A stretch of DNA of 64,000 nt from Emcibacter nanhaiensis (GTDB lineage: Bacteria; Pseudomonadota; Alphaproteobacteria; Sphingomonadales; Emcibacteraceae), in assembly GCF_006385175.1 (NCBI RefSeq), contig NZ_VFIY01000018.1, positions 682,001-746,000 of the forward strand, in the 5' to 3' direction. Both the position numbers and the translations under genes were made by a program. Below the pieces are notes generated by a model. That model did not search any database and was not told the DNA's origin. It saw only the letters and a list, made by a program, of their open reading frames with translations. Of this stretch, positions 4,408-25,938 are shown in pieces. Position 1 is the stretch's first letter. Each line of letters opens with the position of its first letter.

Positions 4408-4423
4408 TCCGGATCCGAAACTC

Positions 4424-5350: not shown

Positions 5351-5361
5351 CGAAGGACTGA

Positions 5362-6870: not shown

Positions 6871-6904
6871 GACATGCTTCCTGCTTTTGAGTTCAGTTAT
6901 TCAT

Positions 6905-7564: not shown

Positions 7565-9672
7565 TCTGTTTGCTCCAATGCTTTGTCTTCGTTCGCCCGC
7601 TTGATCACATAGTGGCGAATGCTCTGGGCCTGTTCCTCGGAGATCACCGGGGCAAAGGACACCATTCCGTTGTCTTTCAGGGCGCCGTCGATGACGACCA
7701 TTTTCCAGCTTTCCTCATCGAACAGCAGGCCGCTGTAGCGCAGGTCGGGGGTAATGCCCCCGGCGACAGCGGCATCGCCGTGGCAGACGCCACAGAAACG
7801 ACCGAAAAGCTTGGCACCCTCAGCAACCACTTCCGCGCTCGCGGTCAACGGCGGCGGATCAAGCGGCATTTCATTGAGCGGCGGCATCGGCGGCAATTCG
7901 GCTGTGCCGTTCAGTTTAAAGACCAAAAGACGGCTGATGTTGCGGACCGGACCGGACACATCCGCCAGCACACCGGTAGCCAGCGGCCAGACCCCGCCCC
8001 AACCGGCAAGCACGGCCACATATTGTTCACCGTCAATGGTATAGGTTACAGGGGCGGCCAGGATGCCGGTCTGGGCCGGGAACGACCAGAGTTCCTTACC
8101 CGTATCCGAAGCATAGGCCTCAAACTTGCTGGAGGCATTGCCCTGGAAAACCAGGCCGCCGCCGGTGGCCAGCAGGCCGCCATTCCACGGCCCCGGGAAA
8201 CTCACCTGCCAGCGTGCCTTCTGCGCCACCGGATCCCAGGCGATCAGGGCGCCGGTCGTTGCTTTCCGGGCGGCATCACGCACTTCCTCGATCGCCGGCA
8301 TGGCGCCGGCGGCCATATCGATACCGACGTTAAAGCCCATGGCGGCCGGCTTCCAGTTTTCGTCCGGGAAATAGGGGAAGCCTGCCAGCTTGGCCGGAAT
8401 AAAGACCAGGTTCTGGTCCGGATCATAGGCCATCGGCTGCCAGTTGTGGCCGCCACTGGCGCCAGGAGAGCCAAAGAAGGGCTTGCCGGTTTTATAATAA
8501 CGGGCCTCAGGCTTTTCGATGGGACGTCCGGTCTCCATATCGATCCCTTCGGCCCAGTTGACCGGGATGTAATTATTGGCGGAAATCAGTTCGCCAGTTG
8601 CCCGGTCAAGCACATAGAAGAAGCCGTTTTTCGGCGCCTGCATCAGCACCTTGCGTTTCTTGCCGTCGATTTCCATATCGGCCAGCATGATATGCTGCGT
8701 CGCGGTAAAGTCCCAGGTTTCGCCCGGCGTGGTCTGATAGTGCCAGACATATTCACCGGTTTCCGGCCGCAAAGCGACAATGGAGGACAGATAGAGGTTA
8801 TCGCCGCCGCCCGGAGACCGGTAGGACTGGTTCCAGGGCGAGCCGTTGCCGACCCCGATATAGAGAAGGTCAAGATCCGGATCATAGGCCATGGAATCCC
8901 AGACAGTGCCGCCGCCGCCAAGCTTCCACCATTCGCCGTTCCAGGTTGCTACTGCCTTTTCCAGATACTCCGGCTGCGGGCCGTTTTCCGGATTGTCCGG
9001 CACGGTATAGAAACGCCACAGCTGATCGCCGGTCTTGGCGTCATAGGCGGTGATATAGCCGCGCACCCCCATCTCGGCGCCGCTGTTGCCGATGATGATC
9101 TTGCCATCAATGGCAATGGGCGCCTGGGTAATCGTATAGGATTTGGACTGGTCAACGGTGACCACGCTCCAGTTCACGGTCCCGGTTTTGCGGTCGAGCG
9201 AAATCAGCCGGCCGTCCAGGGTGCCGAAATACAGGTTGTCGCCCCAGGCGGTCATGCCGCGGTTGACCACGTCACAGCAGCCTTTCACCGCCGTCTCGCC
9301 CGGCACTTCAGGGTCAAATTCCCACAACAGGGCGCCGGTGGCGCCGTCATAGGCTTTCACTTTGGACCAGGCAGTTGAGAAATAGAGATTGCCGTCAATC
9401 ACCAGGGGGGTAGCCTCCTGGCCGCGGGCGGTATCCATATCCGCGTACCAGGCCAGGCCGAGTGAGGAGACATTGGACTGATTGATCAGGTGCGCGGGGC
9501 TGTAGCGCTGTTGATTATAGGTGCGGCCATAGGTCAGCCAGCTCGACGTGTTGCCGGCGGCAGACAGCAGGGCGTCCCGGTCAACACCGCCGGAAGAAAC
9601 CTTCTGCTCTTCATCACCGCCGCAACCGGCAAGCACCAGGGTCGCCGCAATCAGCAATCTTTTTATCATCAT
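7561..9672 (-). CDS. PQQ-dependent alcohol dehydrogenase with C-terminal cytochrome c domain (quinohemoprotein)
   Basis: 703 residues. The N-terminus carries a lipobox (LAGC, C17), so the protein is probably a periplasm-facing lipoprotein. A PQQ beta-propeller follows, with the vicinal cysteines C132-C133 typical of quinoprotein alcohol dehydrogenases and repeated tryptophan-docking blades. A c-type cytochrome domain at the C-terminus carries CGVCH at 627-631. The enzyme oxidises alcohols to aldehydes and passes electrons to the heme and then the respiratory chain. A GGGAGGA site precedes the ATG by 8 bases. It leads the unit with the Nu GST and aldehyde dehydrogenase. A periplasmic dehydrogenase coupled to two cytoplasmic enzymes is unusual, so it may act on an imported alcohol rather than on the GST product. 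Confidence 0.93.
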
Positions 9673-9761
9673 CTCTCATGTCCTCCCAAAATTCAGCGGT
9701 TACTCAAAATTCCGGCACTCTCCCAAAATTTCCGGACTCAAACGCTACTATATCAAACGTT

Positions 9762-9774
9762 AGTATTCCATACT
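9762..9774. promoter_or_regulatory. Palindromic operator-like site upstream of the PQQ dehydrogenase operon
   Basis: AGTATTCCATACT is a perfect 5-base inverted repeat around TCC, set in GTTAGTATTCCATACTTTTT (9759-9778), about 90 bases upstream of the PQQ dehydrogenase start. The same core, with two of three spacer bases changed and an extended palindrome, occurs at 15564-15582. That repetition is the reason for calling it a regulator site. The protein that binds is unknown; the MarR protein of this window is one candidate. Confidence 0.5.
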
Positions 9775-9861
9775 TTTTACGTTCCGCGCGTCAGCCTGGA
9801 TCTCACCGGGAGAAACTTTGGGCCCGCAACATAAGATGCTGCGCGCCCCCAGTCTGGAATT

Positions 9862-10641
9862 TTATCCCCAGCGGTTAATTTCAGGTCCGGGCGCCCAGCT
9901 TTTTTCCGGCTCGGCCACTGTCGCACGGGACAAGGCCTGCTGCACGGAAGACCGGTTACGCACCCGCTCCATCCAGGCCCGGGTTTGCTCAGCATTTTCG
10001 AAAGCCGACGGCACCAGTTCGACCATGCCGGCCAGCCAGGAATAGGTTTCCAGGTCAGCCATGCTGAAGTCGCCCATCAGCCAGTCGCGCCCGTCAAGCC
10101 GGCCTTCGACTTTCTCCACCGCGGCGACAACCTTGCTTTGGGAATCTTCCACCTGCTCGTCGGAGAAATTTCCGGCCCGCACATCGCGCCAGCGCTGCGC
10201 CAGGTCTTCACTGGCAATTTTACCGACTCGCGCCTCGAAATCGCCCTCTTCCAGACCGGCAAGCGGCTCCTGAAGATAGGCGCGAACGCCGAGATAGGCG
10301 GCAGCCGGGGCCAGGCGCTCAATGATCTGGCGACACCAGGTCATCACTTCCCAGCACCCGTAGGAATCCTCGGGCACCAGCGCCGTGCCGCTGCCGATAT
10401 CGTCAAAATAGCGGGCGATAAAAACGGAATCCGCGAGCGGTTCACCGTTCACCACCAGAACAGGGCCTTCCCCCTCGACGCTCATGTTTACCTCAACGCT
10501 TTGCTCGCATTTGTCGCCATGGCGTTCGGCCATCGCCAGGTCAATATACACCAGGTCAGCGTCGAGATTCTTTTCCGAGAGCGCAGCAAGAACCGACAGA
10601 GAGGGACCATTGGGTTCACCGTGATAAAGTTTCATCGTCAT
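9862..10641 (-). CDS. Divergent LigF-like glutathione S-transferase, partner of the next gene
   Basis: 259 residues with a GST fold pattern: MKLYHGEPNGPSLS at the start, a thioredoxin-like domain to about residue 90, and a helical C-terminal domain ending in DFSMADLETYSWLAG. The glutathione-binding loop is altered: the family's NPxGxVP becomes an extended VNMSVEGEGPVL, and the usual E-S pair is D-S (ADSVF). The ATG overlaps the stop of the upstream GST (TAATG), which means tight translational coupling and roughly equal dosage. A heterodimer of the two GSTs, as known for the BaeA/BaeB beta-etherase, would explain both the coupling and the degenerate site. That is inference. Confidence 0.82.
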   Translation of the reverse strand: MTMKLYHGEPNGPSLSVLAALSEKNLDADLVYIDLAMAERHGDKCEQSVEVNMSVEGEGPVLVVNGEPLADSVFIARYFDDIGSGTALVPEDSYGCWEVMTWCRQIIERLAPAAAYLGVRAYLQEPLAGLEEGDFEARVGKIASEDLAQRWRDVRAGNFSDEQVEDSQSKVVAAVEKVEGRLDGRDWLMGDFSMADLETYSWLAGMVELVPSAFENAEQTRAWMERVRNRSSVQQALSRATVAEPEKSWAPGPEINRWG

Positions 10642-11408
10642 TAGTTTGCTCCCCGCTCAAGAATATGCACCCGTTTGACCATGTCCGTCTTGCCCATACT
10701 CCAGATATATTTGGTGGCCGGACGTTCATAGATTTTCCGCAGCCACTCCATGATGTGCGGCGTGCGTTCATCATTGGCCAGTTCCGGCTGGGACAGCGGC
10801 AGGGCGTAGCCCAGGTTAAAGCCGTTCACATCGGCCAGGCTGTATTCATCACTGGCCAGCCATTTGTGCTTGGACAGCTCAGTCTCAAGCATATCAATGC
10901 CCACGGACACGCGACGCATGGATTCGGTCATTTCCTCTTCGCTGAAGGTGCCGTAAATAGCCTTGCGCCAGGCAATGCGGCGCTCACGCATCGGGATGCG
11001 GTCAATGGCGGCTTTCAGCTCTTCGGGGTCCTTGCTGCGCACGGACGGCCCGACGAAGAAACTCCAGCCGATCATGCTGAAGGACGGCGCCAGCCACTGG
11101 TCCATGAATTTCATCCACCAGCGCACCCGCAGACGATCATAGGGGTCTTCCGGCATCAGCGCCGGGCCATCAAAGGTCTCATCCACATACTCCATAATGG
11201 CTGTGGACTCGGTCAGAACCTTGTCTCCGTGCAGCATGGCGGGAATAGTTCCCTGCGGATTGATCTCGAGATACTCCGGCTTGTGCTGATCGAAATTCAG
11301 AAGATCGAGGTAATGACTCTTAAATTGGACACCTTTTTCGGCCAAAGCGAGCATGGGCTTACCCGAATTTGCGTTCGGCTCCCAGTGAAACAGCGTGACA
11401 TCCGTCAT
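10641..11408 (-). CDS. LigF-like glutathione S-transferase
   Basis: 255 residues from the chosen ATG (MTDVTLFHWEPNANS), which sits behind a GGGAGG site; an ATG 69 bases upstream adds residues unlike any GST. The N-terminal domain has ANSGKP, EKGVQF, NFDQH, EINPQGTIP with the cis-proline, and TESTAIMEYVDE. The C-terminal domain has the YSLADVNGFNLG block. It resembles LigF-type beta-etherases more than LigE. It is the first gene of a minus-strand pair with the divergent GST, and it faces the P450 gene across a 500-base AT-rich region. Cleavage of a lignin-type beta-aryl ether is the most likely job, inferred from family and context. Confidence 0.86.
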   Translation of the reverse strand: MTDVTLFHWEPNANSGKPMLALAEKGVQFKSHYLDLLNFDQHKPEYLEINPQGTIPAMLHGDKVLTESTAIMEYVDETFDGPALMPEDPYDRLRVRWWMKFMDQWLAPSFSMIGWSFFVGPSVRSKDPEELKAAIDRIPMRERRIAWRKAIYGTFSEEEMTESMRRVSVGIDMLETELSKHKWLASDEYSLADVNGFNLGYALPLSQPELANDERTPHIMEWLRKIYERPATKYIWSMGKTDMVKRVHILERGAN

Positions 11409-11911
11409 GTTTTTTCCGCCTCCCTTGTTTGCGGCAGTTACCTTTTTGTCCGGCAGCCCTTCCAGCCGCCATTTCATCCCCGTTCGAAGTCCGGTCTCCT
11501 CTGAGATATACCTGACGAGAGACCTTCTTCCCTGCCCAGCTCATTTCCGTACAAAAATGAACCAAGCCGTTGATTCCAAATAAGTTTAAACTATCCTGTT
11601 TTTAGGGAAGAACAGACATGGGAAAAAGTCAGAACCAGGCTCCGCCCATAGAACAGACCCCGGTGTCCCCCAAGTTGACTTCGCCCTTCTCCACTATTGA
11701 CTAGTTTATCTCATATTTGTATTTTTAATTTGTGTTACATACAGTTTTTTTAACTAACATGTCAAGCCAATTAGAGCAAATATATTCGCAACACATGTTA
11801 TCAAAATTTACTCAAATTGGATACAACTTGACAAAATAACAATAAAAAAATTTTCGGGAGACAAAACGGGCAAACAGCCCATTCACCCCTGTATGTATTA
11901 GGAGGATATTC
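11409..11911. other. Divergent AT-rich promoter region between GST and P450 genes
   Basis: About 500 bases, much more AT-rich than the flanking genes, especially 11700-11860. It must hold the promoters of the minus-strand GST pair and the plus-strand P450. A TTGACA lies at 11828-11833, but I see no convincing -10 box at the right distance. A CTAAC half-site at 11754-11758 recalls the operator-like palindromes nearby. A 28-codon ORF at 11618-11704 is listed separately. Confidence 0.5.
11618..11704 (+). CDS. Possible small protein of 28 residues
   Basis: ATG preceded by AGGGAAGA at good spacing, then 28 codons to TAG (starts MGKSQNQAPP, ends FSTID). The sequence is hydrophilic and proline-rich, with no motif I recognise. 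It lies in the promoter region between the GST pair and the P450. It could be a leader peptide, the stump of a lost gene, or chance. The ribosome site is the only positive evidence. Confidence 0.25.
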   Translation: MGKSQNQAPPIEQTPVSPKLTSPFSTID

Positions 11912-13105
11912 ATGCCCGCAGAGACGCCGTCTCACGTCCGGCCGGAACAGGTCGTGGACTTCAATTTCTATCGCCCTTGCACGCCCGGTGGCGACCCTTA
12001 TCTCGCCTGGCAAAGGCTTCAGGATGGCCCGGAAATGATCTGGACACCCCACAATGGCGGTCACTGGATCGCCACCCGCGGCGAACAGATCAAGGAAATC
12101 CTGACCGACTACGGCCGCTTTTCCTCGCGCCATGCCTTTATTCCCATCATTCCCGAACGCCCCCGCGGCCTGCCGCTGGAATATGACCCGCCGGAACATG
12201 CGCCGCTGAAAAAGATGCTGGCGCCCGCGTTCCTGCCCAAGGCAATCCAGCACTGGTCCGATGAGGCCCGCGCGCTGGCGGCGGAACTGGTCGAAGGCTT
12301 CATCGATCAGGGCTGGTGTGAATTCATCGAAGACTTCGCCCAGCAGCTGCCGATCATCATATTCCTGCGTATCCTCGACCTGCCGATGGAAGACCGCGAG
12401 CCGCTTCTGGCGGCGGTCAATTCCGGCCTCCGGCCAGTGGACGAGAAAACCCGGAAGTGGGGCCGCGACTATCTCAACAATTATATCGTCGAGCTGGTGG
12501 CGGAACGGCGCGAGAATCCGCGTGAAGAGATCCTCAGTGCGGCGCTGCATACCGAAATAAACGGCAAGCTTTTGGATGATGAAATGGCCTACGGCCTGAC
12601 CAGCGGCCTGCTGGGCGGCGGGCTTGATACCGTCGCCTCAAGCATGGGCTGGATGGCCCTGTTCCTGGCGGAAAACCCGGGCCACCGCCAGCAACTGGTT
12701 GACGATCCGTCCCTGATTCCCAATGCGGTGCAGGAGCTGCTGCGCCGCTATTCCATCCCCAACATCGCCCGGGTGGTCAGGGAGGACATGGACTATCACG
12801 GCGCCCAACTGAAACAGGGCGAACAGGTCCTGATGTCGGGCTGCCTGTATGGCCTGGACCCGAATATTTTCGAGAATCCCATGGCGGTTGATTTCACCCG
12901 CCGGGATGCCTCGCGGCATATGAGCTACAGCACCGGCATCCATCGCTGCATCGGCGCCAAACTGGCCGACCAGGAGCTGCAGATTTTCCTGCAGGAATGG
13001 CTGCCGCGGATTCCCGACTTCCGGCTCGACCCGGACCATCCGCCGGAGATGGTCACCGGCATTGCCCACGGCCTGAACAAGCTGCCGCTGCTCTGGGATG
13101 CCTGA
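11912..13105 (+). CDS. Cytochrome P450
   Basis: 397 residues, the size of soluble bacterial class I P450s. The I-helix carries GGGLDT with D239-T240, ELLRRYS supplies the K-helix ExxR, and the heme loop is YSTGIHRCIG with the cysteine ligand C346. A strong AGGAGG site precedes the ATG. Such enzymes take electrons from a ferredoxin and hydroxylate or O-demethylate a substrate; CYP199- and CYP255-type enzymes demethylate lignin-derived methoxy aromatics. No ferredoxin or reductase gene is adjacent, so partners must come from elsewhere. Its place within the lignin-type cluster suggests an aromatic ether substrate, which is inferred. Confidence 0.93.
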   Translation: MPAETPSHVRPEQVVDFNFYRPCTPGGDPYLAWQRLQDGPEMIWTPHNGGHWIATRGEQIKEILTDYGRFSSRHAFIPIIPERPRGLPLEYDPPEHAPLKKMLAPAFLPKAIQHWSDEARALAAELVEGFIDQGWCEFIEDFAQQLPIIIFLRILDLPMEDREPLLAAVNSGLRPVDEKTRKWGRDYLNNYIVELVAERRENPREEILSAALHTEINGKLLDDEMAYGLTSGLLGGGLDTVASSMGWMALFLAENPGHRQQLVDDPSLIPNAVQELLRRYSIPNIARVVREDMDYHGAQLKQGEQVLMSGCLYGLDPNIFENPMAVDFTRRDASRHMSYSTGIHRCIGAKLADQELQIFLQEWLPRIPDFRLDPDHPPEMVTGIAHGLNKLPLLWDA

Positions 13106-13110
13106 TCCAT

Positions 13111-13152
13111 AAAAATCCGCCTGCCTCCCGGCATGTCTCGGGAAGCAGGCGG
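13111..13152 (-). terminator. Intrinsic terminator for the amidohydrolase operon
   Basis: Arms CCGCCTGCCTCCCG and CGGGAAGCAGGCGG pair with one mismatch around an 8-base loop. On the minus strand the stem is followed by five T (13111-13115). It lies between the convergent P450 and amidohydrolase genes and may also slow plus-strand transcription. Confidence 0.8.
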
Positions 13153-13192
13153 TTCAGTCTTTGGCTATAAAGCCAGAGGAATTAGGTTCGAT

Positions 13193-14323
13193 CTAGAGCC
13201 GGAACACCCGTTCGGCATTTTCCTGCATCAGCATCTTTTTATGTTCCGGACTGATGTCCATGCGGTCATAGGCGGCCACTTCGTCGCCAGACTGCTGGTA
13301 GGGATAGTCCATGGCGTAAATCACCCGGTCCGGCCCCATCACATCCATGCAGAATTTGATGGCCGGCTCCCAGCCCACGCCGCTGGTGGTGATCCAGATA
13401 TTCTTCTTGAAATAATAGCTGATAGGATGTTCCAGCGTCACCGGATCCTGGCCGCCGCGCAGACCGGGCACCCCGTCGGCATTGGACTGCATCCAGTCAA
13501 AACGATAAAGATGCAGCGGCATGCATTCTCCGAGATGGCCGATCACCAGCCGCAGGTCGGGATATTTGTCAAACGCCCCGGACAGGATCAGGCCCATGGT
13601 GTGAATCCAGACATCATGGGGGAAACCGCCGAGCGCCCCGGTCATGCCGCGGAACTGATAGGGTTCGTTGTAGCGGGGCGCGGTCGGATGGATATAGAGC
13701 GCCGCATCATTGGCCTCCAGTGCCGCCAGGATCGGTTCGAACTCTGCCTCGTCCAGGTAACGCCCCTTCCAGTGGGAATTGAGCACCGCACCACTGAGCT
13801 TCAATTCCTGCATGGCGCGGTCGATTTCCGCCACCGCGCCATCCACATCCTGGGGCTGGAAGGCGGCCAGGGCGGAAAAGCGGTCGGGGTATTTGGCACA
13901 GGCTTCGGCGGCAATATCGTTGGACATACGGGCCAGACGGTTGCCCTCTTCCGGCTCCAGCACCTGCACCCCGGGCGAGGTCAGTAACAGCAACTGCCGG
14001 TCAATGCCGAGCTCATCCATCCGGGCGATACGCTTATCGCCCAGGTCAAACAGGATGTCCTGCAAGGCAGACATGCCGGCGAACATATTGGCCATGGCCA
14101 GCGAGGCATCGTCTGAGGCCCGGCCGCTGTTATGCAGCCTCACCTGGGCTTCGACCAGCTCGGGAAAACTCCAGGCTTCCTCGGTGGCAATGCGCTTATA
14201 GGGAGCGTTGTAGTCAATTTCCGCTTCAGGCGGCGCAAGTCCCACATGGGAGCGTGGGTTAATCACATTATTGCCAAGGCCGCGCATGCCTTTTTCACTG
14301 TTGTCGGAATTATCTTGCGACAT
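13193..14323 (-). CDS. ACMSD-superfamily amidohydrolase, LigW / gamma-resorcylate decarboxylase-like
   Basis: 376 residues. An unusual ~45-residue N-terminal stretch precedes KRIATEEAW, the metal-binding start motif of gamma-resorcylate and 5-carboxyvanillate (LigW) decarboxylases. Later motifs fit the same group: IHPTAP, GHLGECMP and the metal aspartate in YAMDYPYQ. These enzymes remove a ring carboxylate without a cofactor other than a divalent metal. It is the last gene of a minus-strand unit with two NTF2-like proteins. In the LigW setting the substrate would be a carboxylated vanillate-type ring, though hydrolysis of a ring-fission product is also possible. Confidence 0.85.
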   Translation of the reverse strand: MSQDNSDNSEKGMRGLGNNVINPRSHVGLAPPEAEIDYNAPYKRIATEEAWSFPELVEAQVRLHNSGRASDDASLAMANMFAGMSALQDILFDLGDKRIARMDELGIDRQLLLLTSPGVQVLEPEEGNRLARMSNDIAAEACAKYPDRFSALAAFQPQDVDGAVAEIDRAMQELKLSGAVLNSHWKGRYLDEAEFEPILAALEANDAALYIHPTAPRYNEPYQFRGMTGALGGFPHDVWIHTMGLILSGAFDKYPDLRLVIGHLGECMPLHLYRFDWMQSNADGVPGLRGGQDPVTLEHPISYYFKKNIWITTSGVGWEPAIKFCMDVMGPDRVIYAMDYPYQQSGDEVAAYDRMDISPEHKKMLMQENAERVFRL

Positions 14324-14365
14324 GAGCTCTCTCCTTAAACCAGCCTGCTTGACGCAGGCCTGGCA

Positions 14366-14821
14366 TCAGAACATGGTGTTATTATTGGCGGAGATTTCCG
14401 GCACCGGCTGCAACACATCCCAATGTTCGGCAATCCTGCAGCCTTCGACACGAAAGATATCGACCACGGCAAAGCCGCGATCCTCCGATGTCGGCTTAGC
14501 ATGCATATGCACTGCAACCAGATCGCCGTCAGCAATGACCCGCTTTACATCATACTTGAAATCGGGCTGAGTCGAGAGCCAGCCGCTAAGGGCGTCGATG
14601 GCCGGTTGGCGACCGTCGGGGGCCACCGGGTTATGCTGGATATAGTCTTCCCGCACCCAGGTTTCGAAAGCCTCCTTTACCTTCAACTGGTCATAGAACA
14701 GTTTGCCGAAGGCTTCGACCACCTGGCGCGGCGTTTTGTCACAGGATGCCCCCTCCCCGGCGAAAGCTTGGGGGCACACCAGGGCGGCCATCAGAACGCC
14801 CGCGTAGAATGCCCGCATCAT
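14366..14821 (-). CDS. Secreted NTF2-like (SnoaL-type) protein
   Basis: 151 residues with a clear signal peptide (about residues 1-21, ending AFA), so it is exported to the periplasm. The mature part has the cone-shaped NTF2/SnoaL pattern: an N-terminal helix with FGKLFYDQL, VREDYIQHNP, then VIADGDLVAVHMHAK and VVDIFRVEGCRIAEHWD. SnoaL-like proteins with the QHNP motif are often of unknown function, and some act as cyclases, isomerases or lyases. It lies 3 bases after the larger NTF2-like gene and 42 before the amidohydrolase. A periplasmic step in dimer processing is possible. Function is not known. Confidence 0.8.
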   Translation of the reverse strand: MMRAFYAGVLMAALVCPQAFAGEGASCDKTPRQVVEAFGKLFYDQLKVKEAFETWVREDYIQHNPVAPDGRQPAIDALSGWLSTQPDFKYDVKRVIADGDLVAVHMHAKPTSEDRGFAVVDIFRVEGCRIAEHWDVLQPVPEISANNNTMF

Positions 14822-14824
14822 GGC

Positions 14825-15520
14825 TCACTCCTCGAAGGGTTTAAAGGCCTTACCCATCACCGGATGAGCATAATGGTAAGGCACGTCATGGCGATTCGGC
14901 CAGGTCAGGCGCGGTTCGGGCAGCAGCTCGTCCGGCCCGATCGGATTGCCGGGATAGATTTCCACCGCCGGCTGCAGATGAGCCTTGGTTTTGGCCCAGC
15001 CCTTGTCATAGTCCGCCTGCCACTGGACCATATAGTCGAGGCGCTTGATCTTCCACACCCCGTCCACGCAGACATAATCGTTCTCATAGATTCCGGCTTC
15101 ATAGAACTGATCCGGCAGACCCTCGGGCTTATATTCCCGGTCTTCATGCACCCCGCCCATCAGCACGGCGCGGAAGCGGCCCTTGGCGGTTTTGCGGTCC
15201 GGCGCCACGGTAATAATGTCCTGCATCTGGAAATGATCGAGCAGGAAGCCATCCTCGGGCCCCGGCTTGCCGTGGGTGAAATAATTCTGGAACCAGGTCT
15301 TGTAGAGGCGGGCGACTCCTGCCTTGCCTTTATAAATGCCGGACAGGAAGATCACTTCCCCGTCATCGGCAAACAGCTGCACCACTTCGTCATACTGGCA
15401 GAAGTCGATATAATAGCCGTAAGCATAGTGAAGTTTGCGGATCGCCTGCTGGTCTTCCAGCATGCCCACACGATTGGTCAGAGCCTGCAGCTCGGCCCTC
15501 AGATCAGAGTTGTCAGTCAT
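14825..15520 (-). CDS. NTF2-like protein of the size of the diarylpropane lyase LdpA
   Basis: 231 residues without a signal peptide. The N-terminal helix (QQAIRKLHYAYGYYID) and the following YDEVVQLFADD and ENDYVCVDGVWKIKRLDY segments define a SnoaL/NTF2-like fold, followed by a ~50-residue proline-rich tail. LdpA of Novosphingobium is an NTF2-like gamma-formaldehyde lyase of about this length that turns diarylpropane-1,3-diols into lignostilbenes. A lignostilbene-dioxygenase-like gene lies 1 kb away, which makes this role attractive. I cannot align it to LdpA here, so the assignment rests on fold, size and neighbourhood. It is the first gene of the minus-strand unit. Confidence 0.8.
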   Translation of the reverse strand: MTDNSDLRAELQALTNRVGMLEDQQAIRKLHYAYGYYIDFCQYDEVVQLFADDGEVIFLSGIYKGKAGVARLYKTWFQNYFTHGKPGPEDGFLLDHFQMQDIITVAPDRKTAKGRFRAVLMGGVHEDREYKPEGLPDQFYEAGIYENDYVCVDGVWKIKRLDYMVQWQADYDKGWAKTKAHLQPAVEIYPGNPIGPDELLPEPRLTWPNRHDVPYHYAHPVMGKAFKPFEE

Positions 15521-15563
15521 TTTCCCTTTTCCCTATATTTTTTGGTGTTTATGAATAACATTT

Positions 15564-15582
15564 GTTAGTATGCTACACTAAC
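15564..15582. promoter_or_regulatory. Palindromic operator-like site between the NTF2-like and SDR genes
   Basis: GTTAGTATGCTACACTAAC has perfect 6-base arms (GTTAGT/ACTAAC) around seven bases. It lies in the 100-base divergent intergenic region, 44 bases before the minus-strand NTF2-like start and 39 before the plus-strand SDR start, so it can control both. Its core matches the site at 9759-9774 (GTTAGTATnCnAyACT). Confidence 0.6.
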
Positions 15583-15620
15583 TAATAATCAAATCAACAT
15601 CAATATAGAGAGAAATTTTT

Positions 15621-16535
15621 ATGTCCTGGGAAAACAAGACAGCTTTCATTACGGCCGGGGTGTCCGGCATCGGCTTCGGCCTGGCCCGGGCCCTGAGCAA
15701 CGCCGGCATGCGCTTGGCGCTCAGCTATCGCAACGAGGACCACAAGGAGCAGGCCGCCCGCTGGTTTGCCGACCAAGGGCGCGAGCAACCATTGTTTTTG
15801 AAACTGGACGTCCAGGACCGGGACAGATTCGCCGAAGTCGCCGACGAGGTGGAGAATCATTTCGGCAAGCTGCATGTGCTGATCAACAACGCCGGGGTCA
15901 GCGTGTTCGGCCCTACCGACGAAGCCAGCTATGCGGACTATGACTGGATCATGGGGGTCAACTTCGGCGGCGTGGTCAACGGACTGGTCAGCTTCATTCC
16001 CAGGATCAAGGCCCATGGCGAAGGCGGCCACATCGTCAATGTGGCCAGCATGGCGGCCTTCCTGCCCGGCCCCCAGGCCGGCATCTATACCGCCAGCAAA
16101 TTTGCCGTGCGCGGCCTGACCGAGAGCCTGCGCTACAATCTGGCGCCCTACAACATCGGTGTGTCGCTGATGTGTCCGGGCCTGACCCGCACCAATGCCT
16201 GGGACAGCGCCACGCGACGGCCCGACGAGTTCAAGGACAGTGGTTTTGAACCTGTGGAAGCGGCGGAACTGGAACAGTTCGGCACCGCCTTCGAGGCCGG
16301 CATGGACCCGCTGGAAGTGGGCGAAAAGACCTTGCGCGGCATGACCGAAAACCGCGGCCTGATCCTGACCCATCCGGAATTCGCCCAGGACTTCAGGGAA
16401 ATTTACGAGACTTCCCTGGCCGCCCTGCCTGACGAGGAAATCCCGGAAGGACGGCTGCATATCGAAAGACTGCGCCGGGAGGCCATGAAGGCGGCGGAGG
16501 CCGGCATCAAAACCGGCCTCAAGGACCTGACCTGA
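15621..16535 (+). CDS. LigD-like short-chain dehydrogenase (SDR) 3, altered glycine motif
   Basis: 304 residues with the same architecture as the two LigD-like SDRs at 950-2773: NNAGVS, SYADYDWIMGVNFGG, catalytic Y156/K160 and a long C-terminal tail. The nucleotide-binding loop reads TAGVSGIG, so the first glycine of TGxxxGxG is alanine; the other two glycines are intact. The change is encoded cleanly (ACG GCC GGG) and the rest of the gene is undamaged, so the enzyme is probably active, perhaps with changed cofactor affinity. It is transcribed divergently from the NTF2-like unit and converges on the lignostilbene-dioxygenase-like gene. Confidence 0.88.
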   Translation: MSWENKTAFITAGVSGIGFGLARALSNAGMRLALSYRNEDHKEQAARWFADQGREQPLFLKLDVQDRDRFAEVADEVENHFGKLHVLINNAGVSVFGPTDEASYADYDWIMGVNFGGVVNGLVSFIPRIKAHGEGGHIVNVASMAAFLPGPQAGIYTASKFAVRGLTESLRYNLAPYNIGVSLMCPGLTRTNAWDSATRRPDEFKDSGFEPVEAAELEQFGTAFEAGMDPLEVGEKTLRGMTENRGLILTHPEFAQDFREIYETSLAALPDEEIPEGRLHIERLRREAMKAAEAGIKTGLKDLT

Positions 16536-16542
16536 AGTCGGG

Positions 16543-18018
16543 TTACTTTCTGACCGACTTGTCGAGCTCGGCCTGCGGCACCCACCAGCCATGCACCTGG
16601 GGCCGCAGCCGGTGCGGGATGGTGATTTTCGCCACCGGCCCGGCCGCCACATTGCCCGCGTCGAAAATCCAGGCGCCCTGATAGAGGTCATCCTCGCCCT
16701 GCATCATGTCGACGAAGGAAATCAGCCAGCCTTCATGCCCGTCCCGGGCCGACGGCACATGCACCGGCTCGTGGATGCCGCTCAGCGGCGGGAAGGCATA
16801 GGCGTCGATTCTGCCGTTGTCCGGCTCGATCCGCAGCAGCAGGTTGAACTCGGCACCGACCACACCGCCCATCAGCGGCGGACCCTTGAGCTCCGGGTTG
16901 ACGCTCAGGTACCAGCCGCGCTGGTAGGGCCGTCCCTGGTCTTTGTCGGCAATGCGCGGCATATCGCCCGGAGGGCCGAGCGTCACCTGGGTCAGGTTGT
17001 CGTCACTGCCGGTCATGTCCATGGTCCAGCGGATCAGGCCGCCGCCCAGTTCCTGCGGCGGCACATTGAGGCCGGACGCCCGCTGGATAAAGGGAAAAGC
17101 GTTGCAGTTGGACATGCAGTGGTCCATATGCACCCGCCCCTCTTCATCTTCGAAACAGTTCATCATGTGATAGGTGGACACGCCCTTCGGCCCCCGGAAC
17201 CAGCGCATTTCGGAGACATCGCCGTAGCGCGGCATGATGCCGACCCAGCTTTCCAGGTCCATGTGGTGCACCCAGTGATCGCCGCCGGCTTTGAGCCGCT
17301 CCAGGTCAGCCGTGGTCGGATAGACCGGGAACACTGCATAATTTTCGGTGATGACAAAATCATGCATCATGGAACAATAGGGCACATCGAACCATTGTTC
17401 GTGGGTGAGCGTACCCTCCCTGTCGGCGATGCAGTAGGCCACCTTGGAAGAGGCCAGGCCGTCGGCTTCATAGCCGAAGAAGAACATTTCCTTCGTTGCC
17501 GGATCGATACGCACATGGGCAGTCATGGTTTCCGACTTCAGGACGCCGCCGAAATCATAGGAGCCGAGGGTCTCCAGCGTATGCGGATTCATTTCATAGG
17601 CGCGGCCGTCCTCCTTGGTCATCAGCAGGCGGCCCCCGTGCCACACCGGGGTGGTGTTGGCGACGGTGCGGTCGACGCCGTCCACTGACGGGTCATCAGT
17701 AAAGGGATTGCGATAGCGGCCGAACAGCGCCTTGCCGGCCGCAACTTCGGCCTGGTGCCGGGCGGTCTCGACAAAGCGGATGTCGAAATCCACCTGGCCG
17801 TCGGGCCCGAAATAAAGCCGGGACAACATGCCGTCGCCGGACAGGGCGGTGTCATCCTCGAACATCGGCGGAAACGCCGGATCCGGCACCGCACGATAGA
17901 AGGCGCCGCGCACCTCCGCCGGAATTTCGCCTTCCACCTCGAGGTTTTTCAGGCTGTATTCCTCGCCGATTGGCGCATTGATCCCGGTAAAGTCCGGGGT
18001 ATCGGGATATTGTTTCAT
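16543..18018 (-). CDS. Carotenoid-oxygenase-family protein, lignostilbene dioxygenase-like
   Basis: 491 residues, a seven-bladed propeller. The four iron-binding histidines can be placed at H168 (MTAHVR), H219 (MMHDF), H284 (TYHMMN) and H476 (VHGWWV). Y102 (RYRNPF) and K135 (MTKEDG) sit where lignostilbene dioxygenases have the Tyr and Lys that bind the substrate's 4-hydroxyl. These enzymes split the central double bond of hydroxystilbenes with O2 and give two aromatic aldehydes such as vanillin. No signal peptide is seen. The CmcJ-like gene lies 86 bases upstream on the same strand. Together with the NTF2-like protein this suggests a diarylpropane (beta-1) branch. Confidence 0.92.
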   Translation of the reverse strand: MKQYPDTPDFTGINAPIGEEYSLKNLEVEGEIPAEVRGAFYRAVPDPAFPPMFEDDTALSGDGMLSRLYFGPDGQVDFDIRFVETARHQAEVAAGKALFGRYRNPFTDDPSVDGVDRTVANTTPVWHGGRLLMTKEDGRAYEMNPHTLETLGSYDFGGVLKSETMTAHVRIDPATKEMFFFGYEADGLASSKVAYCIADREGTLTHEQWFDVPYCSMMHDFVITENYAVFPVYPTTADLERLKAGGDHWVHHMDLESWVGIMPRYGDVSEMRWFRGPKGVSTYHMMNCFEDEEGRVHMDHCMSNCNAFPFIQRASGLNVPPQELGGGLIRWTMDMTGSDDNLTQVTLGPPGDMPRIADKDQGRPYQRGWYLSVNPELKGPPLMGGVVGAEFNLLLRIEPDNGRIDAYAFPPLSGIHEPVHVPSARDGHEGWLISFVDMMQGEDDLYQGAWIFDAGNVAAGPVAKITIPHRLRPQVHGWWVPQAELDKSVRK

Positions 18019-18104
18019 TGTCTGTCACTCTGTTTAAATTTGGGGTTTAAGATGTCACCCCCTGAACCGCCCTGTTTTTGTTATTTCAGTCCTCAGCCGA
18101 CCAG

Positions 18105-18917
18105 TTAATTTTCGTACCAGTAAGCTGTCGCCCGCATTTCAATGCTGACGCGGGGCACCGCGTCCGCGGGGCAAGTCGGATCATTGAAAGCCACATGGGG
18201 GACCTGCATGGCCTGCCCGGTCGCACTATCAAAGGTATTGAAAACAATCACTTCATCCGGCGTCATATCCCGGTAAAAATACCAGTGATGATCCGGATTA
18301 TGGGCCACGACATAGCCCTCGAACGACCATTCCGGTTTCCCGGGTTCGTCAAAGATCGCATCCGCCTCCACCAGGTCCTCCGGCTCAACCGTTCTCGCAT
18401 CACAAAGGGCAAGGGGCACATCCTGTGGCGCCGCACTCAGGGCGCGCCAGACATTGACCTGGTTATAGCGACGGACCTTTTTCCCTTCGGGGCTGGTCCT
18501 CTGGGCCATGCATTGGGCCGTGGCGGGGCTGATATCCACATGGGCGAAGCGGGCCGGATAGGAATTGTTCAGGGCCCCAGCCTTGCCGCTTTTTTCCCCG
18601 AAACGAAGCAATCCCGGAGACGTGACAAAGACCTCGTCTGCCCCGGTCACCTGCTTGACCAGGGCTTCGATTTCGGTCTTATGCACATCGGCAACGGCTT
18701 CGGGATCGGAAAAATCCATGATGGTGCTTTTGTGAGGGACCAGGGCAAAGCCTTCCCGGTCAACCCTGGGGGGATCCGTCAGATTTCGCGCATTGATGAC
18801 GCTCATTTCCCTGGTATCTATTTCCAGGATATCCCTGGAATGATCGTTGGCGTAATACCGGGGACGCACATCCATCGGCGCAATATAATTGATGTCGGCT
18901 GTGACTGTTTCAGTCAT
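18105..18917 (-). CDS. CmcJ/NvfI-family putative oxidoreductase
   Basis: About 270 residues. The second ATG (18917) is chosen because GAGGGG lies 8 bases before it; the first ATG, at 18923, would add two residues. The C-terminal half carries the blocks I associate with the CmcJ/NvfI/AsaB group: ARTVEPEDLV near residue 170, HNPDHHWYFYRDM, then VFNTFDS and a final histidine followed by RVSIEMRA. That arrangement is like the iron site of 2-oxoglutarate oxygenases, and members work in cephamycin and fungal metabolite pathways. Its place just upstream of the lignostilbene-dioxygenase-like gene suggests an oxidative or demethylating step on an aromatic. The reaction is unknown. Confidence 0.75.
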   Translation of the reverse strand: MTETVTADINYIAPMDVRPRYYANDHSRDILEIDTREMSVINARNLTDPPRVDREGFALVPHKSTIMDFSDPEAVADVHKTEIEALVKQVTGADEVFVTSPGLLRFGEKSGKAGALNNSYPARFAHVDISPATAQCMAQRTSPEGKKVRRYNQVNVWRALSAAPQDVPLALCDARTVEPEDLVEADAIFDEPGKPEWSFEGYVVAHNPDHHWYFYRDMTPDEVIVFNTFDSATGQAMQVPHVAFNDPTCPADAVPRVSIEMRATAYWYEN

Positions 18918-19224
18918 CCTCATTGCCCCTCATCTTCTCCACTATATTTCAGGTGCGACGGTTCATTTTTCCGAGCGCCTCTCCCTGGCCGGCCCGGTGC
19001 CATCGCTATTGCCATACCCTTTCATGGCGTCACACATTAGTTTGTGTGACATATTATTATTTGTTTGTATAACCTATTATCTTGGACAGGTGCAACCGTT
19101 TAATGACCTTGGCCAAAAGCCATTGTCGCTTTTTACATTCGCGAACAGAAGAAAGGATAGATATAGCAAAGCTGAGCACAGGCCTGATGCTGGTGCAGCA
19201 ATAAAATAGCAGAAAAATATATTC
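18918..19224. other. Intergenic region upstream of the CmcJ-like gene
   Basis: About 300 bases between the CmcJ-like start and the MarR-type regulator's stop, both on the minus strand. It must contain the promoter of the CmcJ-like/dioxygenase pair. The part from 19020 to 19080 is AT-rich and holds a 22-base perfect inverted repeat, listed separately. No ORF is convincing. Confidence 0.6.
19029..19050. promoter_or_regulatory. Perfect inverted repeat, likely operator
   Basis: GTCACACA and TGTGTGAC form perfect 8-base arms around TTAGTT. It lies about 110 bases upstream of the CmcJ-like start, in the AT-rich promoter region and immediately downstream of a MarR regulator gene. No T-run follows, so it is more likely a protein-binding site than a terminator. 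Confidence 0.55.
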
Positions 19225-19752
19225 TTAAGACTGGTTGGCGATCACATCCAGGAATTTGAAGAAAGTGGCCAGCTCGTCCTTGGTGAACAGGTTTTTGAAC
19301 CGCTGTTCGTGCCCCTTGATCAGTTCCTTGGCCTGGGCCAAAAGGGCTTCCCCCTCATCAGTCAGGCACAATTCGTGCCGGCGACGGTCGACTTCGGACC
19401 GCTTGCGTTTGACCAGGCCGCGGGTGCTCAGCTTGTCAATAATCACCAGCATGGTGGCCCGGTCCATCAGCAGCACCGACGCCAGTTCTGACTGAGAAAT
19501 GGCCGGGTTTTCCTTGATCAGCCACAGAGTTGCCCCCTGACGCTGGGTCAGGCCGATCGGCGCCAGTGTTTCGAGGAAATCGCGCTGCAGGATGATCTGG
19601 GCGCGCTTCAGCTGGTAGCCAAGCAGTTCATCAAGACCTTTCAGGCTCACCGGTTTACCCGATGACAGTTGCAGTTCTTCCTTGCCTGTATTATTTGTCA
19701 TTTTATTCATACTTTCAATCATCCCCCAAGCACATACGGGAGTTTTCTGCAT
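19225..19752 (-). CDS. MarR-family transcriptional regulator
   Basis: 175 residues from the first ATG; a start at 19710 (MNKMTNN) is equally possible because neither ribosome site is strong. The winged-helix core is clear: LTQRQGATLWLI, ISQSELASVLLMDRATMLVIIDKLSTRGLVKRKRS (two blocks), and the wing VDRRRHELCLTDEGEALL. MarR proteins are dimeric repressors released by phenolic ligands, and they commonly control aromatic catabolism. It lies between the dioxygenase unit and an AraC regulator and is a candidate for binding the palindromes in this island. An imperfect 16-base palindrome lies just upstream of its start and may serve autoregulation. Confidence 0.92.
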   Translation of the reverse strand: MQKTPVCAWGMIESMNKMTNNTGKEELQLSSGKPVSLKGLDELLGYQLKRAQIILQRDFLETLAPIGLTQRQGATLWLIKENPAISQSELASVLLMDRATMLVIIDKLSTRGLVKRKRSEVDRRRHELCLTDEGEALLAQAKELIKGHEQRFKNLFTKDELATFFKFLDVIANQS

Positions 19753-21276: not shown

Positions 21277-22545
21277 ATGTCGTCTTCTCGTCATTTGGCC
21301 CCGGAGGGCAACCGGTTCATCATTCTGCTCGGTGCGCTGACCGCGCAGGGCGCCATTTCGGTTGATGTACTGCTTCCTTCCCTGCCCTCCATGGTCAGGG
21401 AATTGTCCATGACCTCGGCGGCCGCGCAACTGACCATCGGTCTTTATATCGGCGGTTTTGCCGCCGGACAGCTGGGCTGGGGCTGGCTTTCCGACTGGGT
21501 TGGCCGGCGTCCGGTGATCCTGGCCGGCACCGGTGGCTACGCCCTGACCACCTTCATGTGCTCTTTTTCCCACAGCGGGGAGGAACTGCTGTTCTGGCGC
21601 CTGCTCCTGGGCATCTGCGCCGCCGCCCCCATTACCGTGAGCCGGGCCGTGCTGCGAGATCACTTCACCGGCCGGCTGCTGGCCCGGCGCATGGCGGCAA
21701 TGACCACGGTTTTCTTCCTCTCCCCCATGCTGGCGCCTGCCCTGGGCACTTTCCTGCTCTATAGCTTCGGCTGGCGCAGTGTTTTCTGGGTCCCGGGCCT
21801 GATCAGTGTGATTGCCCTCGGCTTCGCCTGGGTCTTCCTGGGCGAAAGCCATGCAATCTCAAAACGCAAACGGTCCAGCTTCCTGCAGATCCTCGGCACG
21901 TTCCGCGACATGATCCTGCATCCGGTCAGCGGCCCGTGCCTGATGATACAGGCCGGCATGTCTGCCGGCATCATGACCTGGATATCGTCTTCTTCCCTGA
22001 TCCTGACCGGCTATTATCAAATTCCGAACCGGTATTACGCCCTTTTCTTCACGGCCACTGCCGCCGTGCAGCTTTCCGGAACCATCAGCTGCAATCACCT
22101 GCTCAGGACTCATACGCTGCCCAAAGTCATGGAATGGGGCGGAATATTTGTCGGCAGCGGTGCAGTGTTGCTGTTTCTGTGCACCGTTCCGTTCAATGCG
22201 CCGCTATGGGCGGTGATGTCGTCCATCTGGATTTTCATGTACGGATTCGGCCTGATGGTCCCGGCTACCAGCGGCATGGCGCTCCATGCCTTCGGCCTGG
22301 TCGGCGGACTGGCCGCCGCCCTGCTTGGCAGTGCCCAAAGCCTGTTCGGCAGCATCGGCTCCATCGTCTCGGCCTCGCTTTACAATGGAACAGCCTCGTC
22401 ACTGGGCGAGGGAATGGGAATGGCGGCCGCTTTCGCCTGCCTCATGCTGCTGATCCTGAGCCTGCGCCTGCGCCGGGAGCCGGAACTGGTCGACCATCCG
22501 CCGGAAGCAGACACGCCCCTGAATGAACAAAAAACCTCAACCTAA
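21277..22545 (+). CDS. MFS transporter, Bcr/CflA drug-resistance type
   Basis: 422 residues with 12 predicted membrane helices. The cytoplasmic loop between helices 2 and 3 has GWLSDWVGRRPVI, the MFS motif A, and the opening VDVLLPSLPSM is typical of Bcr/CflA proton-driven exporters. It begins a plus-strand unit with an acyl-CoA synthetase gene 20 bases downstream and a cupin gene after that. In a catabolic unit such a carrier may protect the cell from a phenolic intermediate, or import a substrate. The direction cannot be read from the sequence. Confidence 0.88.
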   Translation: MSSSRHLAPEGNRFIILLGALTAQGAISVDVLLPSLPSMVRELSMTSAAAQLTIGLYIGGFAAGQLGWGWLSDWVGRRPVILAGTGGYALTTFMCSFSHSGEELLFWRLLLGICAAAPITVSRAVLRDHFTGRLLARRMAAMTTVFFLSPMLAPALGTFLLYSFGWRSVFWVPGLISVIALGFAWVFLGESHAISKRKRSSFLQILGTFRDMILHPVSGPCLMIQAGMSAGIMTWISSSSLILTGYYQIPNRYYALFFTATAAVQLSGTISCNHLLRTHTLPKVMEWGGIFVGSGAVLLFLCTVPFNAPLWAVMSSIWIFMYGFGLMVPATSGMALHAFGLVGGLAAALLGSAQSLFGSIGSIVSASLYNGTASSLGEGMGMAAAFACLMLLILSLRLRREPELVDHPPEADTPLNEQKTST

Positions 22546-22565
22546 TGAAACAAGAGTGAAAAACC

Positions 22566-24134
22566 ATGCGATCCATTGACTATTTTGACAAAGGTGTTGA
22601 ACGTGCAGGCGACCGTCCTGCCTTTATCGAAGGCGACATGTCCATGACCTTCAAGGAGCTGCAGGCGGAAACCTACCGCTTTGCCGCCGCCATGGCCGCC
22701 GACGGCGCCGCCTACCAGTCCACGGTGGCCCTTTACGCCCCCAACCACTGGAGTGTGCTGATCGCCCTGCTCGGCCTGTGGCGGTTTGGCGCCAAATGGG
22801 TGCCGGTCAACGCCCGCAACTCCGTCGACACCAACATCCAGTTCCTGAACTATGTGCGCTGTGAGCGCCTGTTCTACCACTCCAGCATGACCGAGGAAGT
22901 GGAGGAAATGCTGGCCAACATCCCGAGCTTCACCACGGCGGTGTGCCTGGACAAGCCGAACGGCGACCACCCCTCGCTCGAGCAATTCATGAAGCGCGGC
23001 GAAGGTGTCGATTGGCAGGAAAAGTGCGACGCCTTCGGCAACCTCGATGAAATTGTCGGCCTGTTCGCCACCGGCGGCACCACCGGCCCCTCCAAAGGGG
23101 TCAATGTAACCAACCTCGGCTGGGGCACCATGCTGTCGACGGCGTCCTGCTACTGGGATGTGCCGGATATCGAGCCGGTCTGCCTGGTGACTGCACCGAT
23201 GACCCATGCGGCCGGCCCGGTCACCGTCGCCACCATGTCCATCGGCGCCACCCAGGTGATCCTGCCCGGCTTTGATGCCGGCAAGGTCCTTGAAGCGATC
23301 GAGAAACACAAAGTCACCCACATCTATCTGCCGCCCACCGCGCTCTATATCCTGATGGATCACCCGGACCTGAACAAATATGACCTCAGCTCCCTGAAGA
23401 TTTTCCTGCTGGTGGGCTCCCCGGTGGCGCCGGAAAAACTGCGCCAGGCCGTGGAAATCTTCGGCCCCTGCATGTGCCAGTGCTATGGCCAGGTGGAATC
23501 CCCGATGATCACCACCTGGCTGGATCCGGCCACCGTCGCCAGGGCCGCGGCCGGAGACCACCCGGAACGCCTCGCCAGCTGCGGGCGGGCAACGCCGCAC
23601 GTGCGGGTCGGCATTATGGATGATGACGGCAACCTGCTGCCGCCGGGCGAGCGGGGCGAAATCGTCTCCCGCGGGCCGCTGGTCAGCCACAGCTATTTCG
23701 AAAAACCGGAAGCCACCGAGGAAGTGCGCACCTTCGGCTGGCATCATACCGGCGATGTGGCCTACCGGGATGAAGAAGGCTTTTTCTATATTGTCGACCG
23801 CAAGAAGGATATGATCGTCACCGGCGGCTTCAATGTCTATTCCGCGGAAGTGGAAGCCTGCATCCTGGAGCTGCCGCAGATCCTGGAATGCGCCGTCATC
23901 GGCATTCCGCACGAAAAATGGGGCGAAGCGGTCACTGCCATCTGCGTGCTGGCCGAAGGGGAAAGCATTTCCGAAGAGGACGTCATTGCCCACTGCAAGA
24001 CCCGGCTCGGCGGCGTCAAGGCTCCCAAGAAAGTGGAATTCTGGACCGAACTGCCGAAAACCCCGGCCAACAAGCTGGACAAGAAAACCATCCGGCAGAA
24101 GTTCTGGGGCGATTCCGACCGCAACGTCGGCTAA
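22566..24134 (+). CDS. AMP-binding acyl-CoA synthetase / aryl-CoA ligase
   Basis: 522 residues of the adenylate-forming family. The P-loop is FATGGTTGPSKGV, YGQVESP is the A5 motif, HHTGDVAYRDEEGFFYIVDR carries the ribose-binding Asp and hinge, and GGFNVYSAEVE is A8. The C-terminal catalytic lysine lies in PKTPANKLDK, a variant of the usual TxxGK. The enzyme activates a carboxylate with ATP and transfers it to CoA. In this setting a phenylpropanoid or aromatic acid is likely, possibly the side-chain acid from dimer cleavage. The specific acid is not determined. The cupin gene follows 38 bases later. Confidence 0.92.
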   Translation: MRSIDYFDKGVERAGDRPAFIEGDMSMTFKELQAETYRFAAAMAADGAAYQSTVALYAPNHWSVLIALLGLWRFGAKWVPVNARNSVDTNIQFLNYVRCERLFYHSSMTEEVEEMLANIPSFTTAVCLDKPNGDHPSLEQFMKRGEGVDWQEKCDAFGNLDEIVGLFATGGTTGPSKGVNVTNLGWGTMLSTASCYWDVPDIEPVCLVTAPMTHAAGPVTVATMSIGATQVILPGFDAGKVLEAIEKHKVTHIYLPPTALYILMDHPDLNKYDLSSLKIFLLVGSPVAPEKLRQAVEIFGPCMCQCYGQVESPMITTWLDPATVARAAAGDHPERLASCGRATPHVRVGIMDDDGNLLPPGERGEIVSRGPLVSHSYFEKPEATEEVRTFGWHHTGDVAYRDEEGFFYIVDRKKDMIVTGGFNVYSAEVEACILELPQILECAVIGIPHEKWGEAVTAICVLAEGESISEEDVIAHCKTRLGGVKAPKKVEFWTELPKTPANKLDKKTIRQKFWGDSDRNVG

Positions 24135-24172
24135 ACCATAAGATAGAGGCCAAAATATAGAGGAGAGACAAG

Positions 24173-24706
24173 ATGCCTGAAGCACCAAAATCAGAATTCT
24201 GGCGCGATATCATACCCATTGAAAAGGTTTTCAAGCCGGATGCCGCGCCGGAAACCTATTACCCCAACACCACGTCGGGGGACGAGCGATACTGGGTGCC
24301 CATTTCCGACACTGTCTCTTCCCGTCCCCTGTGGATTTCCCCGTCCCGCAACATGTGGGCCGACATCCTGATGGCCAAGGAAGCGGGTCTGGTCAACCGC
24401 CATTACCACCCGCACCAGATCTTCGCCTACACAGTCAGCGGCAAATGGGGTTATCTGGAACATGACTGGACTGCCACCGCCGGAGACTTCATCTATGAAA
24501 CCCCGGGCGAAGGCCATACCCTGGTGGCCTATGATCACGAAGACCCGATGCAGGTCTTCTTCGTGGTCACCGGGCCGCTGATCTGGCTCGATGAAAATGG
24601 CGAGGCCGCCGGATATTTCGACGTCCATGACTATATCGCCATGGCCAAGGAACATTATGACAAGGTGGGGATCGGCGCCGACTTTGTGGACACCCTGTTC
24701 CGCTAG
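24173..24706 (+). CDS. Cupin, 2,4'-dihydroxyacetophenone dioxygenase-like
   Basis: 177 residues of a single cupin barrel. The metal site is visible as RHYHPHQIFAY (His ligands) with the late histidine in GEGHTLV. Length and the DERYWVPISD...FDVHDYI framework match the 2,4'-dihydroxyacetophenone dioxygenase family, which cleaves the C-C bond of an aryl alpha-hydroxyketone to an aromatic acid and formate using Fe and O2. Beta-ether cleavage of lignin dimers yields aryl ketones, so a related ketone is a reasonable substrate; this is inference. A GGAGAG site precedes the ATG and a terminator follows the stop. Confidence 0.85.
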   Translation: MPEAPKSEFWRDIIPIEKVFKPDAAPETYYPNTTSGDERYWVPISDTVSSRPLWISPSRNMWADILMAKEAGLVNRHYHPHQIFAYTVSGKWGYLEHDWTATAGDFIYETPGEGHTLVAYDHEDPMQVFFVVTGPLIWLDENGEAAGYFDVHDYIAMAKEHYDKVGIGADFVDTLFR

Positions 24707-24724
24707 GACGTCACGTTTCACAAC

Positions 24725-24754
24725 AAAAAGCCGCTCAACCGAGCGGCTTTTTTT
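24725..24754. terminator. Bidirectional intrinsic terminator
   Basis: AGCCGCTC / GAGCGGCT stem with a 4-base loop, seven T on the plus strand and five A upstream. It separates the convergent cupin and oxidoreductase genes. Confidence 0.9.
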
Positions 24755-24775
24755 CATGTCTGGTGTACGCCGGGA

Positions 24776-25792: not shown

Positions 25793-25938
25793 TTGTCGCT
25801 CCCTGTATTTGCATTTAGTTTGTTACAAAAACAATTTATACGTCAAGTCAAACTTGCCCGGATTGAAAATATCGCTCAGTCGTTGAACTTTACGGGCTAT
25901 AGAGTATCCTGAAAATATAACCATAACAGGACACCTCC

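Follow-up and report, generated by a model that had tools for sequence, protein, structure and literature searches.

Which catabolic pathway is encoded where an NTF2-like protein, a homologue of the lignostilbene dioxygenases (LSDs) and a protein of the CmcJ family have neighbouring genes, and what would a CmcJ-type oxygenase do in such a place? The question is raised by a locus of Emcibacter nanhaiensis, contained in a window of 64,000 nucleotides (contig NZ_VFIY01000018.1, positions 682,001 to 746,000) whose own coordinates are used below. A preliminary description of this window had proposed that the NTF2-like protein is a lyase forming the stilbene that the dioxygenase cleaves, with the CmcJ-family protein as an unusual partner. 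The reading we propose, to which we give a probability of about 0.85, is that the cluster encodes the β-1 branch (1,2-diarylpropane-1,3-diol; diguaiacylpropanediol, DGPD) of sphingomonad-type lignin-dimer catabolism, as judged by the assignment of its proteins to the LdpA, LdpB and LsdA types from sequence comparison. The proposed chemistry is retained: the core pathway is already known (PMC12997858, PMC11323797), the locus is the β-1 set in a new host, and the point of interest is the CmcJ step.

The genes of the secreted NTF2-like protein, the NTF2-like protein, the dioxygenase and the CmcJ-family protein are all real and lie where they had been placed, on the minus strand between 14366 and 18923; only the limit of the CmcJ gene had to be moved, position 18917 being the second in-frame ATG of a gene that extends to 18923. 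Read along the minus strand, a MarR-family gene (19752-19225) is followed by the CmcJ gene (18923-18105) and, after a gap of 86 bp on the same strand, by the dioxygenase gene (18018-16543). The gene of a short-chain dehydrogenase/reductase (SDR; 15621-16535, plus strand) separates the dioxygenase gene from that of the lyase (15520-14825), with which it is divergent at a distance of about 100 bp. The secreted NTF2-like protein (14821-14366) is encoded 3 bp beyond the lyase, and a LigW-like amidohydrolase (14323-13193) 42 bp further. Most of the gene starts are preceded by a ribosome-binding-like sequence, and the gap sizes make two minus-strand transcription units likely. The preliminary description had passed over the SDR, the amidohydrolase gene that comes next after the NTF2-like pair, and a larger lignin-dimer island. 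This divergent catabolic cluster of the host contig (G000:C18) is not a chance assembly, because its proteins score far above the curated thresholds of their families and dozens of genomes show the same arrangement.

The 231-residue NTF2-like protein (14825-15520; SnoaL_4) is assigned by its sequence to the LdpA-type γ-formaldehyde lyases, as had been suggested. Its matches to the solved LdpA proteins (PDB 8abt, 8abu and 8abv) have E values from 2e-95 to 7e-90, against 1e-4 for the solved protein that ranks next, a putative scytalone dehydratase; identity is 63.7% with the LdpA of 8abt and 60.8% with the one in 8abv. The phylogeny that had been called for, run on 101 proteins, places it with both LdpA structures in a 91-row clade (100/100) and apart from PcfL, to which it is 48% identical; tree and identity rule out a PcfL-type identity. 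All 85 near-invariant residues of the LdpA clade are kept, including 25 at whose positions most PcfL-type proteins have another residue. Between 8abt and 8abu a single aligned residue differs (His to Gln), and it is on this difference that the designation of the corresponding His96 of the window lyase as an active-site residue rests. The lyase was found in none of the other same-family genomes listed in our sample of the order (401 genomes), so that horizontal acquisition of the island is a possibility.

The dioxygenase (491 residues, RPE65/LSD family) is, on the evidence of its sequence, of the LsdA/NOV2 type. Against NF053780, the lignostilbene model for NOV2, it scores 875 bits (cut-off 650); in the tree it falls together with SYK-6 LsdA and NOV2 (100/99), and it is 37-39% identical to LsdD. 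The four iron ligands (His168, His219, His284 and His476) and the Tyr102/Lys135 pair for the 4-hydroxyl group, both noted in the preliminary description, are present together with Asn121. The stacking residue Phe59 of LSD4 is replaced by Leu59, which is also found in NOV2 and in SYK-6 LsdA, hence is not a defining residue of the LsdA clade. Two further LSDs are encoded in the host genome, one grouping with LsdD (C18:673380) and the other with SYK-6 LsdF (C10:171518).

The third element is the SDR. In SYK-6, too, an SDR gene is divergent from ldpA, and the two SDR proteins share 70.7% identity. By its position in the published table the SYK-6 gene is ldpB, SLG_12640 (PMC12997858), and the window protein is, from this identity, taken as its orthologue, of the LdpB type. 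Such an SDR is the divergent neighbour of ldpA in 46 of the 49 ldpA loci with enough flank that formed our comparison set. For the cluster, the observations comprise family and clade membership, the catalytic residues and a gene order that is conserved; the reactions are carried over from the characterised homologues. The LdpB-type SDR would act on the Cα-ketone form of the dimer and reduce it to the erythro diol, as LdpB and LdpC do for the DGPD ketone (PMC12997858). The LdpA-type enzyme would dehydrate this diol to a quinone methide and, without cofactor, expel the γ carbon as formaldehyde to give the lignostilbene; the deformylation of erythro-DGPD by LdpA via a proposed quinone methide is described (PMC12997858). 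The LsdA/NOV2-type iron dioxygenase would then split the stilbene into two aromatic aldehydes, which in the case of lignostilbene would be two vanillins, the known product of the LSDs (PMC12997858).

The cluster resembles the ldpA-ldpB-lsdA pathway of Sphingobium/Parasphingobium SYK-6 and Novosphingobium aromaticivorans (G175 and G404 in our sample, recognised by identity to the two LdpA sequences) in its LdpA-clade lyase, its LsdA/NOV2-clade dioxygenase and their mutual proximity, and it shares with SYK-6 the LdpB-type SDR divergent from the lyase gene. It differs in its host, which stands in a different family from the sampled Sphingomonadaceae, with identities of 61-64%, and in its layout, the CmcJ gene and lsdA lying between MarR and ldpB, without a lig operon alongside and with the LigW-like gene attached. 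The PcfL/LsdD/LigW β-5 pathway of N. aromaticivorans follows the same logic of a lyase and then an LSD. The host has its own β-5 set just upstream of the window (PcfL 73%, LsdD 81% and LigW 78% identical), from which the window lyase (48% to PcfL, LdpA clade) and dioxygenase (37-39% to LsdD) are distinct.

The 272-residue protein encoded by 18105-18923 is a CmcJ/NvfI-family Fe(II)/2-oxoglutarate (2OG) oxygenase. It scores 285 bits on NCBIfam NF041278 (cut-off 80) and carries the invariant HxD..H motif and arginine as H128, D130, H243 and R258, that is, the iron triad and the 2OG-binding Arg; its AlphaFold2 model (mean predicted local distance difference test score 92.6) has CTB9 and NvfI as the closest solved folds, with template-modelling scores of about 0.8. 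It shares with CmcJ, NvfI and CTB9 the NF041278 family, these residues and the fold, and is set apart by its surroundings: the known members act in β-lactam, meroterpenoid and cercosporin biosynthesis, whereas the clade of the window protein is found in aromatic catabolic loci. This clade (47 rows, 100/99) contains the window protein together with the ldpA-linked copies.

Its position directly upstream of the dioxygenase gene had been read as unusual, and the comparison shows the reverse: it is rather a usual neighbour of this cluster. In N. aromaticivorans the CmcJ gene lies 64 bp upstream of lsdA, between ligC (Saro_2811) and lsdA (Saro_2809) by the published numbering. In the order sample a CmcJ gene is present in 35 of 35 lyase-positive genomes vs 6 of 366 lyase-negative ones, and in Novosphingobium in 71/72 vs 23/124, counts that take related genomes as independent and hence overstate the significance. 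Restricted to LSD-positive Novosphingobium, the figures are 71/72 and 6/51, and it is because of this contrast that we consider the CmcJ gene to track the lyase and not the LSDs in general. A CmcJ gene is found within 10 kb of 52 of the 68 Novosphingobium ldpA genes, about 1.3% being expected from copy number, and among the 49 well-flanked loci the window clade of CmcJ occurs in 29 and an LsdA-type gene in only 5. Simple inheritance is made less likely by the within-genus contrast, and also by the fact that the association is met again in Parvularculaceae, in Erythrobacteraceae and in a gammaproteobacterial bin. From co-distribution and adjacency, the CmcJ-family enzyme most likely has a function in the β-1 pathway. 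No publication assigning the CmcJ-family genes of these loci was found in a literature search that included few subscription journals, and the gene is absent from the table of pathway genes of a 2026 review.

A third clade of NTF2 lyases, separate from LdpA (45% identity) and PcfL (53%), was also encountered (L005, G000:C17:15033-15698; L043:8028-8699; L050:9107-9769; L053:3625-4287; and L055, L057 and L060 near 2160-2820). In five of these loci (L050, L053, L055, L057 and L060) a CmcJ-family gene lies about 75-90 bp downstream of the lyase gene on the same strand, and in the gammaproteobacterial bin (L050:5822-10663) an LSD, two CmcJ-family genes, a third-clade lyase and an LdpA-clade lyase adjoin one another.

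What could such an enzyme contribute? We lean, by a small measure, towards a distinct CmcJ/NvfI-type clade performing a lignin-dimer catabolic step together with NTF2 γ-formaldehyde lyases, for example through O-demethylation of guaiacyl rings, the resulting catechols remaining cleavable by LsdA/NOV2, or through introduction of the hydroxyl group required by the lyase, a second CmcJ clade acting likewise beside the third lyase clade. By oxidising an aryl O-methyl group or hydroxylating a C-H bond of the dimer, it would allow more kinds of dimers to enter the pathway. Formation of the cercosporin bridge by CTB9 involves the oxidation of an aryl O-methyl group. The bridge in question is a methylenedioxy bridge (PMC9808054), and piceatannol, a catechol stilbene, is cleaved well by NOV2 and not by LSD4 (PMC8191317). 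Aryl O-demethylation, yielding a catechol and formaldehyde, is our tentative first choice, held with low confidence, because of the fold and chemistry of CTB9 and because the cleavage of a catechol stilbene by NOV2 means that LsdA could still use the products; a hydroxylation that primes the substrate for the lyase comes second and is doubtful.

Several points weigh against the β-1 assignment or against a place of the CmcJ enzyme within it. The lyase is only 64%, and not more than 90%, identical to a characterised LdpA and stands on an early branch of the LdpA clade, so that its substrate may differ from that of LdpA; the β-1 pathway as known does not require a 2OG oxygenase, nor does it offer a role for the LigW-like protein or the secreted NTF2-like one; the SYK-6 orthologue of the CmcJ clade (52%) is not beside ldpA, a more distant CmcJ-family gene lying about 12 kb from lsdA in that strain; and fold similarity cannot fix the CmcJ reaction, because the Fe/2OG enzymes of this family perform varied chemistry. 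Some of these points would fit a paralogous pathway, in which deformylation and stilbene cleavage are applied to another diaryl substrate (catecholic, syringyl or carboxylated dimers) and the CmcJ, LigW-like and secreted NTF2-like proteins handle its extra groups. To the early branching of the lyase can be added, in its favour, the LigW-like decarboxylase subgroup, which adjoins ldpA in 27 of the 49 loci at 60% identity or more, the acceptance of piceatannol by NOV2, and the replacement of Phe59 of LSD4 by leucine. This leucine is, on the other side, shared with NOV2 and SYK-6 LsdA and not special to the window, the lyase keeps every one of the near-invariant residues of the LdpA clade, and the LdpB-type SDR is conserved as in SYK-6, all of which makes us regard a different substrate as unlikely.

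A narrower objection concerns the CmcJ gene only, which might serve protocatechuate or other monomer metabolism and stand near ldpA merely through a nearby lig operon. It does follow LigB- and/or LigC-type (GFO_IDH_MocA) genes in a relative of N. aromaticivorans (G386) and in Erythrobacteraceae loci. In the window, in Parvularcula and in Marinicaulis, however, it sits at lsdA/ldpB without an adjoining lig operon; its tracking of the lyases among LSD-positive Novosphingobium and the second CmcJ type directly downstream of a third-clade lyase point the same way, and we hold a monomer role to be improbable. As for a dioxygenase that cleaves carotenoids and an NTF2-like protein that is a steroid isomerase or polyketide cyclase, the outcomes named in the preliminary description as fatal to its proposal, they are allowed by the superfamily names (RPE65, SnoaL) and by nothing else. 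The dioxygenase obtains 160 bits on the apocarotenoid model NF052295 (cut-off 675) vs 875 on that of NOV2, which rules out a carotenoid role, and with the lyase in the LdpA clade and the dioxygenase beside LsdA and NOV2 the combination is scarcely credible. The β-1 branch, with a CmcJ enzyme as its probable companion, is the reading we retain.

Two proteins encoded directly after the lyase accompany this core. The 151-residue secreted SnoaL/NTF2-like protein (14366-14821, minus strand; PF12680, PF07366; PDB 3g0k, E 3e-19), already recognised in the preliminary description, opens with MMRAFYAGVLMAALVCPQAFA, which by eye alone was taken for a Sec-type signal sequence; a homologue flanks 29 of the 49 ldpA loci, within 1.5 kb in 18 of them, and two copies follow ldpA in SYK-6. 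The LigW-like amidohydrolase (13193-14323, minus strand), a predicted aryl-carboxylate decarboxylase, is of the fold family of the 5-carboxyvanillate decarboxylase LigW, with motifs that can be aligned with PDB 4inf (E 1e-85), and would, at 42-46% identity (45% to LigW of N. aromaticivorans), belong to a subgroup apart from LigW; the subgroup found beside ldpA is 64-76% conserved.

Further away, a LigF-like, β-etherase-like glutathione S-transferase (GST; 10641-11477, minus strand; best PDB match LigF 4xt0, E 4e-46) forms a satellite of the cluster with a second GST (9862-10641, minus strand; PF00043, PF02798), the two occurring in the flanks of 18/49 and 17/49 ldpA loci, respectively. At the start of the window, on the plus strand, are two Cα-dehydrogenase-like SDRs, one LigN-like (950-1858; best PDB matches Cα-dehydrogenases at E 1e-68, 68.5% to Saro_0794) and one LigO-like (1871-2773; 62% to Saro_0793), labels that follow from the positions of Saro_0794 and Saro_0793 as ligN and ligO. 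The LigW-like gene and the two GST genes are separated by a cytochrome P450 gene (11912-13105, plus strand). This P450, the MarR-family regulator (19225-19752, minus strand; PF01047), whose link to the CmcJ gene is one of position only, and an AraC regulator were rejected as conserved members of the cluster, being found in 0, 2 and 2 of the 49 loci.

Much of the lignin-dimer island is common to Parvularcula and Marinicaulis. The set for β-5 dimers (PcfL, LsdD, LigW, aldehyde dehydrogenase and transporter; L108, G000:C18:664001-684000, at 9335-17300) is located about 1 to 9 kb ahead of the start of the window, and beyond it an extra major facilitator superfamily (MFS) transporter and SDRs run into the window. 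Past the AraC regulator, genes named by eye from their translations (MFS transporter, acyl-CoA ligase, cupin, zinc-type dehydrogenase and nitroreductase-like; 21277-26577) are possibly a further aromatic-acid module. Elsewhere in the host genome, the LSD that groups with LsdF (PinU-like) is near an NmrA-type, PinZ-like reductase (L109, G000:C10:164001-184000, at 2806-8984) in what is likely a β-β (pinoresinol-type) locus; a second CmcJ-family gene, then a P450, lies about 8 kb from this LSD (16557-17633). The genome also has about ten LigB-type extradiol dioxygenase genes, and three LigB-family matches (G000:C3:26712, C3:37767 and C4:342) have identical scores of 129.3 bits, perhaps through recent duplications or assembly repeats.

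In conclusion, our observations extend the β-1 gene set for lignin dimers to a host that does not belong to the usual families of sphingomonads. The association of the CmcJ-family oxygenase is a useful lead, since it is a near-universal companion of the deformylating lyases and is present in the two best-studied lignin-degrading strains. Could it be an O-demethylase or a hydroxylase acting on the dimers? If so, engineered bacteria could use a wider range of lignin fragments.

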